NCBI GenBank assembly: GCA_021787335.1
Contig: JAJYMC010000053.1
Coordinates: 1-37,363, forward strand
DNA length: 37,363 bases
Reading direction: 5' to 3'
Origin: Bacillota bacterium
GTDB taxonomy: Bacteria > Bacillota > Sulfobacillia > JAJYWN01 > JAJZPE01
Positions 10,579 through 17,911 of the stretch are shown in pieces; positions within the stretch are counted from its first letter, which is position 1, and each line of letters opens with the position of its first letter. The notes below the pieces were generated by a model. The model was not told where the DNA came from, searched no databases, and saw nothing but the letters and a program-made list of their open reading frames with translations. The position numbers and the translations under genes are program-made.

Positions 10579-10809
10579 TTGTTCATCGTCGTTGCTCGTC
10601 CGGACGGCCTCGTCTTCCGCGGTCGCGTGGCCGATCTCCGCGGTTGGCTGGCGGACTTGGCCCAGTCTTGGCGGGCCGCTTCAGAGGGTCAGGCGAGACC
10701 CGGCGGCGCTGGGCCGACCCTCGCCGAGGCCCTGTCCGTCTGGCTTTCCGCCGGTGAGCCTGGGGGCACCACGGGTGAGCCCAGGGACACCGCCGGCGAC
10801 CGGAGCTGA
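10579..10809 (+). CDS. Small conserved-looking ORF, divergent from the Nudix gene and convergent with DUF3866
   Basis: 76 residues from TTG 10579, with GGAGGG (10567-10572) six bases upstream; the in-frame ATG 10564 has no such site. The product begins MFIVVARPDGLVFRGRVADL, then a Trp-rich helix (RGWLADLAQSWRAA) and LAEALSVWLSAGE. The tail is low-complexity and built from a 21-bp repeat. It overlaps the 3' end of the DUF3866 gene by about 120 bases on the opposite strand. The globular first 55 residues do not look like random high-GC translation, but I do not recognise the family. Confidence 0.45.
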   Translation: MFIVVARPDGLVFRGRVADLRGWLADLAQSWRAASEGQARPGGAGPTLAEALSVWLSAGEPGGTTGEPRDTAGDRS

Positions 10810-11993
10810 GCCGTGGCCGACGCCAGGCGGGCCGCGTGGACCCCGGCCGCGCCGGCGGCCAGGAAGAAGTACGGGTCGGCCTCGGGGCCGCGGCCCATGG
10901 TGGTCACCCTGAGCCCGATTCGATCCAGGTGATCGAGGGCGGGCCGGCCCGAGGCGACGACCGTCCGGTGCCGTGGCGGCAGGCCCTCCAGTTGCCGCCG
11001 GACCTCGCCGAGCATGGGCTCGGGTAGCTCCGGCAGGACCAGGGTCGACGGGGCCAGGGCGCCGACCTGCAAGACGGTCAGGGTGTGATGGCTCAGCCCG
11101 CGGTGTCTCGGCCGCGGATCGGCCCAACTCATCCTGGCCGCGGCCACCGGGGTCCCGCCGAGGGCCCAGGCGGCGTTGAGGGCCTCCCCCTGAGACAGAC
11201 CCGAGAAGCCCAAGCGGGTGCCCGTCCCGGCCTCCCCCGGCCCCATGGCGACGATGACCGCGTCGGCCCCGAGGTGGGCGCGGGCGGCGGCCAGGGCCGA
11301 GTGGAGCGTGACCGCCTCTGTGTCGCCCCCAAAAGCTTGGCCGGCCGTGACCACCGCGTCGATGAGGCCGGCCTCTTTCATCGCCGGGATGAGCCGGCTG
11401 AACCTGGCGGCCAAGGCCCCCGCGTCGGTCATGATGTAGACGACCCTGGGGTGATGACCGCTGCCGTGGCCGCCGCCGTCTCCGGGGCGACCATCCCAGG
11501 CCGCCCGCAGGCCGGCCGCGACGATGGGCACCTGGCTGTGAAGTTCGGCCGCCACCACCGGGATACCTGCCAGCACGGCAAAGTCCCGGACCGCCTCCGC
11601 CCCCGGGTGCTGGGGCTCCTCCGCTGAGAGGCAGGCCACCTGGGACGGGGTGTAGCGCCATTTCATCACGCGGCCCGGCGAAGGCGGGGCGCCCGAAGGC
11701 GGGCCGCCCCCCGCCCCGGCCTCCAGCGCCTCCGCCTCCTCCCCCGCCCCGCCGCCGGCGCGCACGTTCACCGCGGCGACGACGAAGTCGAAGCCGCCCG
11801 TGCCCAGCCCAAGGTCGACCGCGGTGGTGTTGAGGACGACCAGGTCGCCGGGGCGGATGCCGCCGACCACCTCAGGATAGGCCACGGCCGGCGTCGAACG
11901 GCCCTCGACGGTGACCAGGTCGACCCCCGGCCACCCCCGCTCCACCTTGGTCACGCGCCCCGCGCTCAGCTCGGCCCCGTACAACGCGCCCAC
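10689..11993 (-). CDS. DUF3866 family protein
   Basis: 434 residues. It opens with a beta-rich region (VDLVTVEGRSTPAVAYPEV), then GDLVVLNTTAVDLGLGTGG, MKWRYTPSQ, and later AVIVAMGPGEAGTGTRLGFSGL, LSHHTLTVL and TTMGRGPEADPYFFLAAGAAG. These are features of the DUF3866 family, found near steA or sporulation genes in actinobacteria and Bacillota; its function is not established. It starts at GTG 11993 with only a weak ribosome site. The last 45 or so residues (SPAVSLGSPVVPPGSPAES) are low-complexity, contain a duplicated 21-bp unit and overlap an opposite-strand ORF. It is the first gene of the series leading to spoIIM. Confidence 0.8.
   Translation of the reverse strand: MGALYGAELSAGRVTKVERGWPGVDLVTVEGRSTPAVAYPEVVGGIRPGDLVVLNTTAVDLGLGTGGFDFVVAAVNVRAGGGAGEEAEALEAGAGGGPPSGAPPSPGRVMKWRYTPSQVACLSAEEPQHPGAEAVRDFAVLAGIPVVAAELHSQVPIVAAGLRAAWDGRPGDGGGHGSGHHPRVVYIMTDAGALAARFSRLIPAMKEAGLIDAVVTAGQAFGGDTEAVTLHSALAAARAHLGADAVIVAMGPGEAGTGTRLGFSGLSQGEALNAAWALGGTPVAAARMSWADPRPRHRGLSHHTLTVLQVGALAPSTLVLPELPEPMLGEVRRQLEGLPPRHRTVVASGRPALDHLDRIGLRVTTMGRGPEADPYFFLAAGAAGVHAARLASATAQLRSPAVSLGSPVVPPGSPAESQTDRASARVGPAPPGLA
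10750..10791. repeat. Two imperfect 21-bp tandem copies in overlapping gene ends
   Basis: Units 10750-10770 and 10771-10791 share the GGTGAGCC...GG.CACC pattern. A 21-bp unit keeps frame on both strands. It gives GEP-G/R-x-T on the plus strand and a repeated SLGSP/PPGSP-type segment in the DUF3866 tail. Confidence 0.7.
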
Positions 11994-12152: not shown

Positions 12153-12202
12153 GACAAGAACAAAGCGCCAGGCGGCCCTGGGAGGGGCGCTCACCTGGCG
12201 CT
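12153..12202 (-). terminator. Terminator of the three-gene cassette
   Basis: AGCGCCAGG (12164-12172) pairs with CCTGGCGCT (12194-12202). On the minus strand the stem is followed by TTTGTTCTTGTCC. It lies about 30 bases past the retropepsin-like stop. Confidence 0.8.
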
Positions 12203-12234
12203 AAACAGATAAGGGGTCTCCACGCGAATCAATG

Positions 12235-12651
12235 TTAGGGCGAAAAAGCAAAATAGACCTTCTTCCTGGCCTCGCGAAAAGCAACCTGGACTAGCGGGAA
12301 GAACCCTTCGCGCCCAAGGAGACCGAAATCCTCAGACGCCGTCTCGGTAATTCGTATGGGAACTGTGTACAAATGGCGATTGATCTCAATCTTAACCGCT
12401 GAGATTGCCAAGGCCTTAACGTCCCCACCGGCGGTCCCCAAAACCACTTCTTTGGCGTTACTCATGTCAAGATCTACTCCATCAACAATGGAGGGATGGA
12501 CAGTAGTGACCGAAGCCCCTGAGTCAACAAGAAAGGGCACGGTCGACTGCAGAGTCTTGCCGTTTATCGTTACAGGCACTATTGGGTGGCCTACAACGCT
12601 GTTAAAGTTGAAGCTGTAGTCGAAAGCAACCTCATATTTAGCCTTGGGCAT
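12235..12651 (-). CDS. Retropepsin-like aspartic protease
   Basis: 138 residues from ATG 12651 (a TTG at 12675 is possible). The single-domain clan AA fold is signalled by the active site VDSGASVTTV (Asp about residue 44) and the distal LLGREGFF, which matches the hydrophobic-hydrophobic-Gly motif of retropepsins. The N-terminal FDYSFNFNSV and PIVPVTINGK strands fit the same fold. There is no signal peptide or membrane segment, so it is probably cytoplasmic and active as a dimer. It overlaps the DUF5678-like gene by 14 bases and ends the cassette. Base composition is visibly lower in GC than the flanks. The target is unknown. Confidence 0.82.
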   Translation of the reverse strand: MPKAKYEVAFDYSFNFNSVVGHPIVPVTINGKTLQSTVPFLVDSGASVTTVHPSIVDGVDLDMSNAKEVVLGTAGGDVKALAISAVKIEINRHLYTVPIRITETASEDFGLLGREGFFPLVQVAFREARKKVYFAFSP

Positions 12652-13063
12652 AGGCGTAATCCTTAAGCTTCCCAAGATTGATCTTCATGATGAACGGGTT
12701 CTGAATCCCGCGTTCTTTCGCCAGCTTTGCCAGCTCTGCAGTGCTTTTCGAAACCCCGATTAGACTTGACCCTTTGACGGCGATCCACTGCCCTTCGTAA
12801 GGTCTAAGTCTTGATTGGTTTTCTCGAACCCATCTTAGTTCGCGCACACCAGGAACCTCATCCGAAGGCGGCATGGGCTCCTCATCTCCCGTATCGTCGA
12901 CCATAGTGATGCGGAAAACCTTCGGGGCATTGCTCAGTAGGTCTGCTCGCTGCATTCTACGTAGAACATTCGGGGGAATGCTCTCCACAGCAAAATCGTT
13001 CCCCAGAAAAAGGTCATCTATGCAAGGGGCTTGCGTGCTGGCTGCTAGAGCCAATGACTTCAT
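12638..13063 (-). CDS. DUF5678-like protein
   Basis: 141 residues from ATG 13063, which overlaps the preceding stop as ATGA. The C-terminal part (about residues 88-131) reads YEGQWIAVKGSSLIGVSK, then STAELAKLAKERG and PFIMKINLG. This is the pattern of small DUF5678 domains (a Trp-Ile/Val-Ala strand, a Gly-Val turn, a helix, then a strand). The N-terminal 85 residues are acidic and unfamiliar (MVDDTGDEEPMPPSDEVPG looks disordered). It is translationally coupled on both sides. Domain assignment is by eye and moderate. Confidence 0.7.
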   Translation of the reverse strand: MKSLALAASTQAPCIDDLFLGNDFAVESIPPNVLRRMQRADLLSNAPKVFRITMVDDTGDEEPMPPSDEVPGVRELRWVRENQSRLRPYEGQWIAVKGSSLIGVSKSTAELAKLAKERGIQNPFIMKINLGKLKDYAYAQG

Positions 13064-13386
13064 CCAACAAATCCCTTCTTCCTTAGCTGGTTCACGACTC
13101 TCTCGAACATTGCGTGAGTCCTTAGGAAGTGCGGCCAGGAAAAGGCTAGTCTAACGACCAGGCGGGTTTCAAGGGGTTCAGGCGAAGAACCTTTAACACC
13201 GGTGTATACCGTCTGCCAGAAGCTAAGTACTGGCCCCTCCCCATTGGTCGCCAAGGTAATATAGTCCACGTAACTGGCCTCTCGCCGACCTTCAGGCTCC
13301 ACAAAAACCCTCTGCTTAGGGGTCTGACGTCGGGCCTTAGTACCCGTCTTAGTCTCGGCCTTGGTCTCGATGGCCCGTACTGCCAT
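13060..13386 (-). CDS. DUF3467-like small protein, first gene of the cassette
   Basis: 108 residues from ATG 13386, with GGGAGGGTGG upstream. The basic N-terminus (KAETKTGTKARRQTPKQR) is followed by SYVDYITLATNGEGPVLSF and RLVVRLAFSWPHFLRTHAMF. The strand-strand-helix plan, with an R-[IL]-x-[FM]-S-x-x-H-type motif, resembles DUF3467. The function of such proteins is unknown. It is coupled to the next gene by ATGA. The lower GC matches the rest of the cassette. Confidence 0.7.
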   Translation of the reverse strand: MAVRAIETKAETKTGTKARRQTPKQRVFVEPEGRREASYVDYITLATNGEGPVLSFWQTVYTGVKGSSPEPLETRLVVRLAFSWPHFLRTHAMFERVVNQLRKKGFVG

Positions 13387-13743: not shown

Positions 13744-13778
13744 CAAAAGACCCGGGAGCCGCCGGGCTTCCCGGGTCT
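13744..13778 (-). terminator. Terminator at the end of the kor operon
   Basis: On the minus strand, AGACCCGGG-A-AGCC, a CGGC loop, and GGCTCCCGGGTCT, with one bulged A, followed by TTTTGC. It lies about 80 bases past the korC stop and closes the fermentation operon. Confidence 0.88.
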
Positions 13779-13856: not shown

Positions 13857-14411
13857 TCACTTGCCGTTCTTGCGGACGATCTCGGCCCCGCGGTCGAGGG
13901 CCATCCGGTTGAGCGGGATGAGGTTGTGGCGGTGCGCCGGGAGGGCCTTCTTGAGGGACTCGACGATGGAGTCCATCTTGACCACCTCGGTCGCCTCGAC
14001 CAGGGCGCCCAGGGCGACCATGTTGGCCACCCGGTCGTTGCCGAGTTCGGTGGCGATCTCGTTGGCCGGGACGTAGTAGACGTGGATGTCGCTGCGCTTG
14101 GCCTTGATCCCGATGAGCGACGAGTTGACGATGAGGACCCCGCCCTCACGGACCGTGGGCTCGAACTTCTCCAGGGACGGCTGGTTCATGACGACGGCGG
14201 CGTCGGGGTCGGTGACGACCGGCGAGCCGACGTTCTCGGCGGCGATGACCACCGTGCAGTTGGCCGTGCCGCCGCGCATCTCCGGTCCGTACGACGGCAT
14301 GTAACTGACCTTCTTACCCTCGACCATGCCGGCGGCGTAGGTCAGGAGCTGACCCATCATCATCACGCCCTGACCGCCGAAGCCGGCGAAGATGCATTCG
14401 AGATCGGTCAC
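13857..14411 (-). CDS. korC: 2-oxoacid:ferredoxin oxidoreductase, gamma subunit
   Basis: 184 residues from GTG 14411. It begins VTDLECIFAGFGGQGVMMMG, the conserved N-terminus of gamma subunits of the Kor/Vor class, then MPSYGPEMRGGTANCTVV (CoA/TPP interface region) and a Rossmann-like remainder. Length is typical. The upstream open frame to 14651 belongs to the inserted element and is not native. Directly upstream lies the left end of a TnpB element, so the gene has no recognisable ribosome site of its own. In my reconstruction, its original site is the GGGAGGTG at the end of korB, now 1.36 kb away. The enzyme may therefore be made at reduced level or need re-initiation. Confidence 0.93.
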   Translation of the reverse strand: MTDLECIFAGFGGQGVMMMGQLLTYAAGMVEGKKVSYMPSYGPEMRGGTANCTVVIAAENVGSPVVTDPDAAVVMNQPSLEKFEPTVREGGVLIVNSSLIGIKAKRSDIHVYYVPANEIATELGNDRVANMVALGALVEATEVVKMDSIVESLKKALPAHRHNLIPLNRMALDRGAEIVRKNGK

Positions 14412-14417
14412 TTTGTC

Positions 14418-14478: not shown

Positions 14479-14508
14479 TTGACGAACATGTGTTCGGTGA
14501 TATACAAT
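14479..14508 (+). promoter_or_regulatory. SigA-type promoter of tnpB
   Basis: TTGACG (14479-14484), an 18-base spacer, then TACAAT (14503-14508): each element matches 5 of 6. The expected start is at about 14515, which is the first base of the GTG chosen for tnpB, suggesting a leaderless or nearly leaderless message. Confidence 0.6.
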
Positions 14509-14514
14509 GGAAAC

Positions 14515-15708
14515 GTGGAAAACGACGTTTCGCTCAAGGTTAGGCTTCTTGAGCCAACCACCAGGAAGGTGCGGGCGCTTTCGGCCATGCAGGAGCAGTA
14601 TACGAAAGCCCTGTCATTGCTGGTGGAGAAGGCAATGGAACTGAACACCACCTCCCTGGGGCGGTTGCATCGGGAGGCTTACCATCAGATCAAGGGCGAA
14701 GTCTCGTTGCCTTCCGAATCACTACGGGTAGCGTTGAATCAGACGTGCCACATCATGCGGTCCTGGAAGGCCCGGCGGGAAAGGGGGTCGAAGAACGGAT
14801 CGCCGGTTATCAAGAGACTTCAGCCAACCGGGGTGGGCACTCGCGGATACCGGATCATTCAGGATGGAGATAGGTTTGTGCTGCGCCTGACCACAAGCGG
14901 CGGGTTCCTGTGGCTTCCGCTCAAGAATGAGCCGTACTACCGTGCGCCCCTGAAAGCTATCGCTACCGGGAAGGGGCATCAGGGAGACGCCAAACTCATT
15001 CAGGAGAATGGTTGGTGGTACCTGCTTTTGCCCACGCAGGAGAAAGTGCCCGAACCCGCCGGAACGAATGTAATCGGTGTTGACCTCGGGGTCGCAAATC
15101 TTGCAGTTGTCTCCTCTCCTGACGGTAAGGTGAACCGCTTCCTCTCCGGCCGTGCTGTCCAGGCAAAGCGGAATCGGTTCTTCGGCCGCCGCTACTCCCT
15201 GTCGTGCGCCAAGAAACCTCACATCATCAACCGAGACCGGGACAAGGAACATCGTTGGATGAAAGACGTGAATCATAAGGTTTCGCGGGCCATCATCCGA
15301 GAAGCGCAGAAGGCGGTGAACCCGGTAATCGCCCTGGAGGAACTACGAGGAATCCGAGAGCGGGTCAAGGCTACCAAGAAGGTTAACCGGATGCTCCACT
15401 CCTGGGCGTTCGCCCAACTAATCGGCTTCATCGAGTACAAGGCCGCACGGGCTGGTATCCCCGTTGTACGGGTGGACCCTCGTAAGACCAGCCAGACCTA
15501 TTCCAGGTGCGGCCACGCGGAGCGGGCAAATCGGAGTACGCAAGCCCTATTCAGGTGTAAGCGATGTGGGTTCGAGATTCACGCCGATTTGCAGGCCGCT
15601 CGGAACATTGCCGTTAAGGCACAATCGTTCGTATCAGGCTATATGTCTGGTACGATGGGCCTCCTGACAAGGCCCTCAAGCCCGGCAACTCTACTCCCTT
15701 GGGAGTAA
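14515..15708 (+). CDS. tnpB: TnpB, RNA-guided nuclease of an IS200/IS605-type element
   Basis: 397 residues from GTG 14515. TnpB is an omega-RNA-guided DNA endonuclease related to Cas12 that promotes retention of the element. The RuvC triad is intact: Asp190 in GVDLGVANLAVV, Glu275 in ALEELRG, and Asp358 in HADLQAARN. The zinc ribbon is altered. Where TnpB proteins normally have C-x2-C, this one has Tyr329-Ser-Arg-Cys332, paired with Cys348 and Cys351. A single G-to-A change (TGT to TAT) would explain it. The frame is open upstream to 14392, but that part lies in the IS end. A GTG at 14497 is an alternative start, though it would sit within the promoter. There is no tnpA nearby, so mobility would need a TnpA in trans. 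Confidence 0.9.
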   Translation: MENDVSLKVRLLEPTTRKVRALSAMQEQYTKALSLLVEKAMELNTTSLGRLHREAYHQIKGEVSLPSESLRVALNQTCHIMRSWKARRERGSKNGSPVIKRLQPTGVGTRGYRIIQDGDRFVLRLTTSGGFLWLPLKNEPYYRAPLKAIATGKGHQGDAKLIQENGWWYLLLPTQEKVPEPAGTNVIGVDLGVANLAVVSSPDGKVNRFLSGRAVQAKRNRFFGRRYSLSCAKKPHIINRDRDKEHRWMKDVNHKVSRAIIREAQKAVNPVIALEELRGIRERVKATKKVNRMLHSWAFAQLIGFIEYKAARAGIPVVRVDPRKTSQTYSRCGHAERANRSTQALFRCKRCGFEIHADLQAARNIAVKAQSFVSGYMSGTMGLLTRPSSPATLLPWE

Positions 15709-15776
15709 ATCCCGACCGGGCAATCTGGCAACTTCCCTTCGGGAATCCCACCCCTTGAGGGGTGGGAGGATGTCAA
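15620..15776 (+). ncRNA. Predicted omega RNA (reRNA) of the TnpB element
   Basis: In this family the guide RNA scaffold comes from the 3' end of tnpB and the right end. Here 15660-15776 is rich in short hairpins: GGGCC/GGCCC near 15657-15674, CTCCC/GGGAG around 15702-15709, CCCTTCGGG, and the terminal CCCACCCC hairpin. The 5' limit is a guess. The guide would be the flanking bases from 15777 onward, the antisense of the korB 3' end. Confidence 0.45.
15743..15776 (+). other. IS right end: guide GAAT, hairpin, cleavage site TCAA
   Basis: GAAT sits immediately 5' of the 8-bp stem with a TTGA loop, and TCAA closes the element. These tetranucleotides are those of the IS608 right end. Read on the minus strand, the terminal TTGA contains the TGA that now stops korB. 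Confidence 0.75.
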
Positions 15777-16573
15777 TCGGTCTTCACCTCCCGAGTCGGG
15801 ACGGTCGTCTTGGCCGCCGAGGGACCGGGCAGGCCGGGTTCGGTCTTGAACTCACCCAGCGGGTAGACCGGGAGCATGTTCTCCTCGAGCCACTTGAGGG
15901 CCTCGTTGGGGGTCATCCCCCAGTTGGTCGGGCAGGTCGAGAGGACCTCGACCATGGAGAAGCCCTTCTTGTCGACCTGGGCCTGGAAGGCCTTCTTGAC
16001 GGCCTGCTTGGCCCGGGCCACCTGGGCCGCGTTGTGGGTCGAGACCCGGGCGATGTAGGCGGGTCCCTCGAGCTGCGAGAGCATCTCGGACATGCGGATG
16101 GGGCGGCCGGCCCGCTCGGGCTTACGCCCGCCTGGGCTGGTCGTCGTGTTCTGGCCGAGGAGAGTCGTCGGGGCCATCTGTCCGCCGGTCATCCCGTAGA
16201 TGGCGTTGTTGACGAAGATGACGGTGATGTTCTCCCCGCGCATGGCGGCGTGGACGATCTCGGCCGTGCCGATGGAGGCCAGGTCGCCGTCACCCTGATA
16301 GGTGAAGACGGTGCGGTCGGGCAGGCAGCGCTTGATGCCCGTGGCCACGGCCGGCGCCCGCCCGTGGGCGGCCTGCTGGAAGTCGACGTTGAAGTAGTTG
16401 TAGGCGAGCACTGAGCAGCCGACCGAGGCCACGCCGATGGTCTTGCCCTGGACCCCGAACTCATCGATGGCTTCGGCGACGAGCCGGTGGATGATCCCGT
16501 GCGTGCAGCCCGGGCAGTAGTGGAAGATGACGCTGGACAGCGCCTTGGGGCGCTCGAAGACCTTCACACTCAT
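15773..16573 (-). CDS. korB: 2-oxoacid:ferredoxin oxidoreductase, beta subunit
   Basis: 266 residues from ATG 16573, overlapping the korA stop as ATGA. Thiamine-diphosphate subunit: HYCPGCTHG near residue 20, [11 protein letters not shown], the TPP/Mg motif [17 protein letters not shown] and [11 protein letters not shown]. With KorA it oxidises a 2-oxoacid to acyl-CoA and reduces ferredoxin. The last codon (GAT) and the stop TGA are formed partly by the inserted IS right end. The presumed native end was ACC-GAG-TGA, so the protein differs by only its last residue. Its final codons contain GGGAGGTG, apparently the old korC ribosome site. Confidence 0.95.
15785..15792 (-). promoter_or_regulatory. 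Orphaned ribosome-binding site for korC inside the korB 3' end
   Basis: GGGAGGTG on the minus strand. In the reconstructed uninterrupted sequence it would lie 8 bases before the korC GTG. It now precedes the korB stop and the IS end. Confidence 0.5.
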
Positions 16574-17667
16574 ACGCCCAACCTCCCCCCGAGCTTGTCA
16601 CGCTTCAGCGAGTGGTCGATCTTGTGCAGCTCTTCCAGGACCGCCTTGGGGGTCGGGACCATGCCACCCATGCGGTTGTAGAAGAAGATCGGCGCCCGGT
16701 CCTGGACGGCCAGGCGGACGTCCTCGATCATCTGACCGGCCGACATCTCCACGTCGAGGAAGGCCCTGACGCGTTCGGAGGCCTTGCGGAAGGGCTCGTA
16801 TGGGAACGGCCAGGCGGTGATGGGCCTGATCATCCCGACCTTCAGCCCTTCCGAGCGGGCCCGCTTCATGGCCGAGATGGCCACGCGGGCCGAGGTGCCA
16901 TAGGCGGTCAGGACGATCTCGGCGTCGTCCATGTTCAGTTCCTCGAAGCGCACCTCGCGCTCGGTCATCTGGCGATACTTCTCCTGGAGCTTGAAGTTGT
17001 GCTTCTCGCACAGCTCGGCGTCCAGGTAGAGGGAGTTGACGACGTTGGGCTTGCGGGTGCCCCCGGTGCCCGTGGTCGCCCAGGACTTCTGCGGGAGTTT
17101 GGCCAGGTCGACCGGCTCGGGCAGGACGACCGGCTCCATCATCTGGCCGAGGACCGCGTCGCCGAGGATCATCACCGGGTTGCGGTAGTGCTCGGCCAGT
17201 TCGAAGGCCTGGCCGACGAGGTCGATGGCCTCCTGGACCGAGGCCGGGACGAAGACGAGCAGCCGGTAGTCCCCGTGGCCACCGCCCTTGGTGGCCTGGA
17301 ACCAGTCGCCCTGCGCGGGCTGGATGCCGCCGAGCCCCGGGCCCGCCCGGACCATGTTGACGACCAGGGCCGGCAGTTCCGCCCCGGCGATGTAGGAGAT
17401 GCCCTCCTGCTTCAGGCTGATGCCCGGGCTCGACGACGAGGTCATCGACCGCGTGCCCGTGCCGGCCCCGCCGTAGACCATGTTGATGGCCGACACTTCG
17501 CTCTCGGCCTGGATGAACGTCCCGCCGACCTCGAACAATTTCCTGGCCATGTACTCCGGGATCTCGTTCTGCGGTGTTATCGGATACCCGGCGAAGAAGC
17601 GGCAGCCGGCCCGGATGGCGGCTTCAGCGACCGCTTCGTTGCCTTTCATCAGGATCTGTTCGGCCAA
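16570..17667 (-). CDS. korA: 2-oxoacid:ferredoxin oxidoreductase, alpha subunit
   Basis: 365 residues from TTG 17667, chosen because GGGAGGGG lies six bases upstream and it yields the family N-terminus [20 protein letters not shown]. The pyrimidine-binding domain motifs are visible: [53 protein letters not shown], and the transketolase C-terminal-like part ([12 protein letters not shown]). The frame upstream of 17667 is non-native. It lies between korD (13 bases away) and korB (4-base overlap). Substrate class is uncertain from sequence alone. The dehydrogenase-ptb-buk context favours branched-chain 2-oxoacids (Vor) over 2-oxoglutarate. Confidence 0.95.
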
Positions 17668-17680
17668 TCCGTTCCCCTCC

Positions 17681-17911
17681 CTACCTTGCCACCCTCTCCG
17701 GGCGGAAGATCTCAATCACCGTGTCGGGGCACATCCGGGCGCACAGCAGGCAAGTGGTGCACTTGGCCTGCTCTTCGTCGGTGACGGCGGCCGGATGGAA
17801 GCCCTTGGAGTTGAAATGGTCCGCCAGATGGATGATCCCTTTGGGGCAAGCCTCGATGCAAAGCTCGCAACCCTTGCACCTTTCCTCGTCGAACGAGACT
17901 TTCTTATCCAA
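17681..17911 (-). CDS. korD: 2x[4Fe-4S] ferredoxin subunit (delta)
   Basis: 76 residues from TTG 17911, with AAAGGGGGAA upstream. Two clusters of the bacterial ferredoxin type, CKGCELCIEACP (about residues 12-23) and CTTCLLCARMCP (about 51-62), carry electrons from the TPP/Kor core to external ferredoxin. It immediately precedes korA. Confidence 0.95.
   Translation of the reverse strand: MDKKVSFDEERCKGCELCIEACPKGIIHLADHFNSKGFHPAAVTDEEQAKCTTCLLCARMCPDTVIEIFRPERVAR

Follow-up and report, generated by a model that had tools for sequence, protein, structure and literature searches.

A recurrent DUF5678–retropepsin gene pair in an AT-richer cassette of a Bacillota genome

A three-gene cassette and its surroundings

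Three small genes lie on the minus strand of the window (the whole stretch of 37,363 nucleotides that we analysed), gene 1 overlapping gene 2 by 4 nt (ATGA) and gene 2 overlapping gene 3 by 14 nt, as an earlier note made from the sequence alone had described. The cassette and its probable boundaries comprise the following features:

13386..13060, minus strand: gene 1, a 108-amino-acid ORFan with a basic, probably disordered N terminus followed by a predicted strand-strand-strand-helix order
13063..12638, minus strand: gene 2, 141 amino acids, with an N-terminal extension (residues ~1–70) and a C-terminal DUF5678 domain (~87–128); the proposed antitoxin or partner
ATG at 12651, stop at 12235, minus strand: gene 3, a single-domain retropepsin of 138 amino acids with the motifs VDSGAS and GLLGR; the proposed effector
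12160..12205, minus strand: intrinsic-terminator-like hairpin at the 3′ end of the cassette (−34.2 kcal/mol, z −5.5), followed by a run rich in T
13750..13767, minus strand: terminator-like hairpin between the gene for the gamma subunit of a 2-oxoacid:ferredoxin oxidoreductase and the cassette, a 6-pair stem (5 G–C) followed by CTTTTGCTTT

The second hairpin separates the cassette from the oxidoreductase gene, and the cassette is therefore probably transcribed on its own. Its G+C content is 52.2%, compared with 73% in the left flank and 69% in the right, and falls to 26 of 60 positions in the line 12361–12420. Third-position G+C (GC3) is 0.54–0.59 in the cassette genes versus 0.88–0.95 in the checked host genes of the window, a comparison that leaves out the oxidoreductase gamma-subunit gene owing to its rough start coordinate. 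Both the AT-richer island and the downstream terminator that the earlier note had reported are thus confirmed.

The gene directly downstream of the cassette (10689–11993, minus strand) encodes a conserved, uncharacterised DUF3866 protein (1.6e-105). A stand-alone IS605-type TnpB gene (14500–15708, plus strand; PF07282 3.5e-23, also PF01385) sits about 1 kb from the cassette, on the opposite strand between the minus-strand gamma-subunit (13857–14414) and beta-subunit (15773–17715) genes of the oxidoreductase operon. No TnpA gene was noticed near this TnpB gene, which is itself mobile and has a GC3 of 0.68.

Genes 2 and 3 were absent from the genomes of the same genus, family and order that we searched. 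Elsewhere in the class, an N-terminally extended DUF5678 protein is encoded in just one genome, G102 (a ‘Bacillota bacterium’ metagenome-assembled genome (MAG); loci L004, L016 and L017). By eye, a frame-broken retropepsin lies 3′ of the gene for this protein, and the gene upstream is unrelated to gene 1. The absence from near relatives, together with the foreign composition, points to lateral acquisition of the cassette.

The encoded proteins

Retropepsins are common in bacteria, and a role is known for few of them. Gene 3 belongs to the PF13650 family (E = 3e-11, 44.3 bits against a gathering cut-off of 24.3; PF13975, E = 3e-10), as the earlier reading of a retropepsin-like gene had anticipated. 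Its product carries the catalytic D[ST]G motif as VDSGAS and the hydrophobic-hydrophobic-glycine motif as GLLGR. Its closest relatives among all fetched open reading frames are retropepsins linked to DUF5678 genes (L032, 1e-10; L076, 2e-9; L034, 1e-8), a ranking to be read against a set in which most fetched retropepsins are DUF5678-linked anyway; its place in a retropepsin tree was not resolved. A profile of the partner-linked retropepsins matched ApRick, Ddi1 and viral retropepsins in the PDB. Collection scans queried with the window retropepsin gave no match, nor did plasmid and phage searches with the proteins of the window. The same genome encodes a second retropepsin-like protein (L025; G000:C44:127395-127559) of ~332 amino acids with a lipoprotein-like N terminus, beside which no DUF5678 partner was seen.

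Gene 2 was also correctly named DUF5678-like: its residues 87–128 match PF18929 (E = 6.4e-6, 26.3 bits against a gathering cut-off of 23.2). The domain is modelled with pLDDT values of 79–90 as helix-helix-strand-strand-helix-strand, and the acidic N terminus as poorly structured (pLDDT ~30). The N-terminal ~70 residues matched no family and had no relatives among the fetched sequences; over the whole of gene 2, the Pfam search returned DUF5678 and, below threshold, Rho_N, but no antitoxin or other DNA-binding domain. Searches by sequence found no solved DUF5678 structure, and the domain model had no Foldseek match in the PDB at E ≤ 0.001 (best VIA Z 2.5, a value that allows no interpretation).

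The proposal that gene 1 is DUF3467-like did not hold. We found no match to PF11950 up to E = 10, and a score of 0.3 bits against a hidden Markov model (HMM) built from fetched DUF3467 proteins, well within the range of 1,000 shuffled sequences (best 4–8 bits). The likeness is confined to a similar strand-strand-strand-helix order in a low-confidence predicted model (three strands and a helix, pLDDT 55), which had no significant match in the PDB; moreover, DUF3467 loci have neither retropepsin nor DUF5678 neighbours. Gene 1 matched no convincing family in Pfam, NCBIfam, PHROGs or PADLOC, and relatives were found neither in 154 genomes of the class nor beside any other fetched DUF5678 or retropepsin gene. 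It appears to have been added locally and may act as a regulator or as a second partner.

Genes 2 and 3 form a conserved two-gene unit

The first search for the pair used a DUF5678 alignment headed by a purpose-written, consensus-like sequence. In a ‘Deltaproteobacteria’ MAG (L019), a DUF5678 gene and a retropepsin gene overlap in the same order as in the window; in a Chloracidobacterium MAG (L018), the two genes are adjacent and convergent. Searching 198 genomes of the phylum of the former and 297 of the phylum of the latter for DUF5678 gave loci at 57 distinct places. A retropepsin lies directly downstream on the same strand in 45 of these, across the two phyla (42 recognised by HMM, and L044, L058 and L064 by tblastn), and a retropepsin fragment occupies the same place in a further three (L056, L082 and L087). 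As a control, no retropepsin was found near any of 30 DUF3467 loci. Gaps between the two genes are mostly −28 to +6 nt, so that most pairs overlap or nearly touch. The catalytic aspartate is present in all 34 of the longer, full-length partner retropepsins and the D[TS]G motif in 31, the canonical motif being lost in the other three. Eight of the 42 partner reading frames are shorter than 120 amino acids and are probably truncated; so many short copies could reflect weak selection. The earlier note had envisaged a cassette of three families kept together as neighbours: the DUF5678–retropepsin pair does recur, overlapping, in distant phyla, whereas the full trio was not found elsewhere.

Neither family is confined to the pair. 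In genome G537, three stand-alone single-domain retropepsins (L023, L027 and L029) have no obvious small partner; as the loci were collected through DUF5678, the frequency of such retropepsins rests on few genomes. Several DUF5678 genes in Bacillota adjoin UbiD-type decarboxylase genes (recognised by eye) and no retropepsin, so DUF5678 is not solely a protease partner. One of these genomes (G428; L005, L008, L009 and L011) has five DUF5678 genes, several directly beside UbiD-type genes, which suggests that the domain has a distinct role in metabolism as well. We also observed some proteins with two DUF5678 domains (L065; L065/L078) and, at one locus, two adjoining DUF5678 genes (L070).

The DUF5678 partners differ in what precedes the domain. 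In the phylum of G537 they are mostly 63–80 amino acids long, with little outside DUF5678; in other genomes, variable N termini are joined to the domain by linkers. Antitoxin-type N-terminal domains are present on some partners only. Three DUF5678 proteins from the acidobacterial side (L074, L080 and L081) have a RelB-like PF18506 N terminus above the Pfam cut-off (3e-11, 6e-11 and 1e-9, respectively) and weaker Phd/YefM matches. In a fourth (L084), a match to a FitA-like ribbon-helix-helix domain stays under the cut-off (1.6e-4), and a fifth (L073) is AbrB-like by eye only.

The pair also moves between contexts: near-identical modules (85–98% identity) sit in otherwise unrelated flanks. Two loci (L047 and L048) have 406 bp in common at 97.3% identity and nothing else in 3 kb, and two others (L032 and L035) have 584 bp in common at 85%. 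Some copies adjoin HicB–HicA, PIN, DUF4258 or MqsA-like genes.

Proposed function of the pair and comparison with known systems

Because the pair recurs in two other phyla, with some partners fused to antitoxin DNA-binding domains, we consider it probably a toxin–antitoxin-like or defence unit. The ‘toxin-antidote-like’ and ‘immunity’ options raised by the earlier note are accordingly favoured for this recurrent, overlapping pair and not for the trio. Our specific proposal, to which we give roughly an even chance, is that genes 2 and 3 were acquired laterally as a two-gene module and follow toxin–antitoxin-like logic, with DUF5678 restraining or directing a proteolytic effector. It is built on the observed pairing, gene order, overlap, conservation of the catalytic motif, antitoxin-type N termini on some partners, movement between contexts and the foreign composition in the window.

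The DUF5678 protein, encoded upstream, would use its DUF5678 domain to bind the retropepsin translated along with it, and would either keep the protease inactive or target it; in several relatives, the added DNA-binding antitoxin domain may serve autoregulation. Stress, loss of the element or phage infection could remove or displace the partner, on which the released retropepsin would dimerise through its DSG motif and might cut cellular or invader proteins, with toxic effect. Counting against this proposal are the UbiD-linked DUF5678 genes, the missing antitoxin domain in gene 2 of the window, the lack of a counterpart to gene 1, the loss of D[TS]G in 3 of 34 partners and the convergent pair in L018.

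The main rival is a regulated, non-toxic housekeeping or stress protease, for which DUF5678 would be an adaptor, chaperone or prodomain-like cofactor presenting substrates, by analogy with RimB–RimK. The characterised bacterial retropepsin-like enzymes RimB (PMC11957791) and RloA (PMC12239564) act in regulation and osmotic stress, not killing, and the company that DUF5678 keeps with metabolic UbiD-type genes fits such a role; however, the patchy distribution, the mobility and the antitoxin-type DNA-binding N termini would be odd for a housekeeping adaptor, and we regard this alternative as rather unlikely. As a special case of the toxin–antitoxin-like proposal, the pair may act in anti-phage abortive infection, with phage unleashing the retropepsin and DUF5678 serving as sensor and inhibitor. 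The patchy distribution would suit this role. Among the phage defence candidates in PADLOC, moreover, are two pairs with this layout, one of them matched by P0001 (PDC-M52A, 5e-6) and P0002 (PDC-M52B, 1e-44). We nevertheless judge abortive infection improbable: the PADLOC entries are predictions, DUF5678 matches no PADLOC model, the window retropepsin reaches E = 0.017–0.019 at best, and no defence genes were recognised near the cassette in the window. That gene 2, or its acidic N terminus, mainly serves the protease as substrate and is a regulator activated by cleavage would suit its N-terminal extension (poorly structured in the model) and the variable, linker-joined N termini elsewhere, but it is very unlikely, as partners of 63–80 amino acids in the phylum of G537 leave little to cleave.

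Beyond the window, and more tentatively than for the pair itself, single-domain retropepsins may act across bacteria as proteolytic toxins or abortive-infection effectors with interchangeable small inhibitors of the DUF5678, PDC-M52A and PDC-M08A types. If this were true, there would be a widespread protease-based class of toxin–antitoxin systems on the HIV protease fold. A recurrent mobile pair, with antitoxin DNA-binding domains on the partner in relatives, offers a direct hypothesis, open to experiment, about the DUF5678 family and about the many retropepsins that are orphans. The pairing could also connect conflict systems of bacteria with the fold of retroviral proteases.

Among characterised proteins, RimB, RloA and ApRick are likewise single-domain clan AA enzymes, and the accounts consulted describe none of them with a DUF5678 partner; RimB works with its operon partner RimK, and RloA is secreted (PMC12239564). 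The open-access literature yielded nothing relevant on DUF5678, on retropepsins in combination with toxin–antitoxin systems, or on PDC-M52 and PDC-M08.

The pair resembles type II toxin–antitoxin systems in its small upstream gene and overlapping downstream effector, in being kept together across distant genomes, and in the swapped antitoxin DNA-binding N termini of relatives, the mobility and the toxin–antitoxin genes nearby. It differs in that its proposed effector is, as judged from sequence, an aspartic protease, and in that gene 2 of the window itself is without an antitoxin DNA-binding domain. The 2009 survey of type II systems by Makarova is silent on aspartic and pepsin-type proteases (PMC2701414).

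The PADLOC candidates PDC-M52 and PDC-M08 share with our pair a small partner A encoded first and an overlapping single-domain retropepsin B encoded second; the difference lies in the partner, which here is DUF5678. Gene 3 resembles PDC-M08B only at the E values given above, and genes 1 and 2 match no PADLOC model. The PDC entries of PADLOC are predicted systems, most of them not validated by experiment (PMC12988326). In the cyanobacterial plasmids that encode P0001 and P0002, the retropepsin overlaps a small gene other than DUF5678; this PDC-M52-like pair (L061 2284-2890; H4/H7 NC_011721.1) is 82% identical between Pseudanabaena and Rippkaea. We tried and rejected a relationship between PDC-M52A (P0001) and an acidobacterial N-terminal helical segment, which scored no higher than shuffled sequences. 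Another small partner, in G537, weakly resembles PDC-M08A. As a small partner with a retropepsin is already among the PADLOC candidates, the general kind of system is known, although uncharacterised, and the DUF5678–retropepsin pair is a variant of it.
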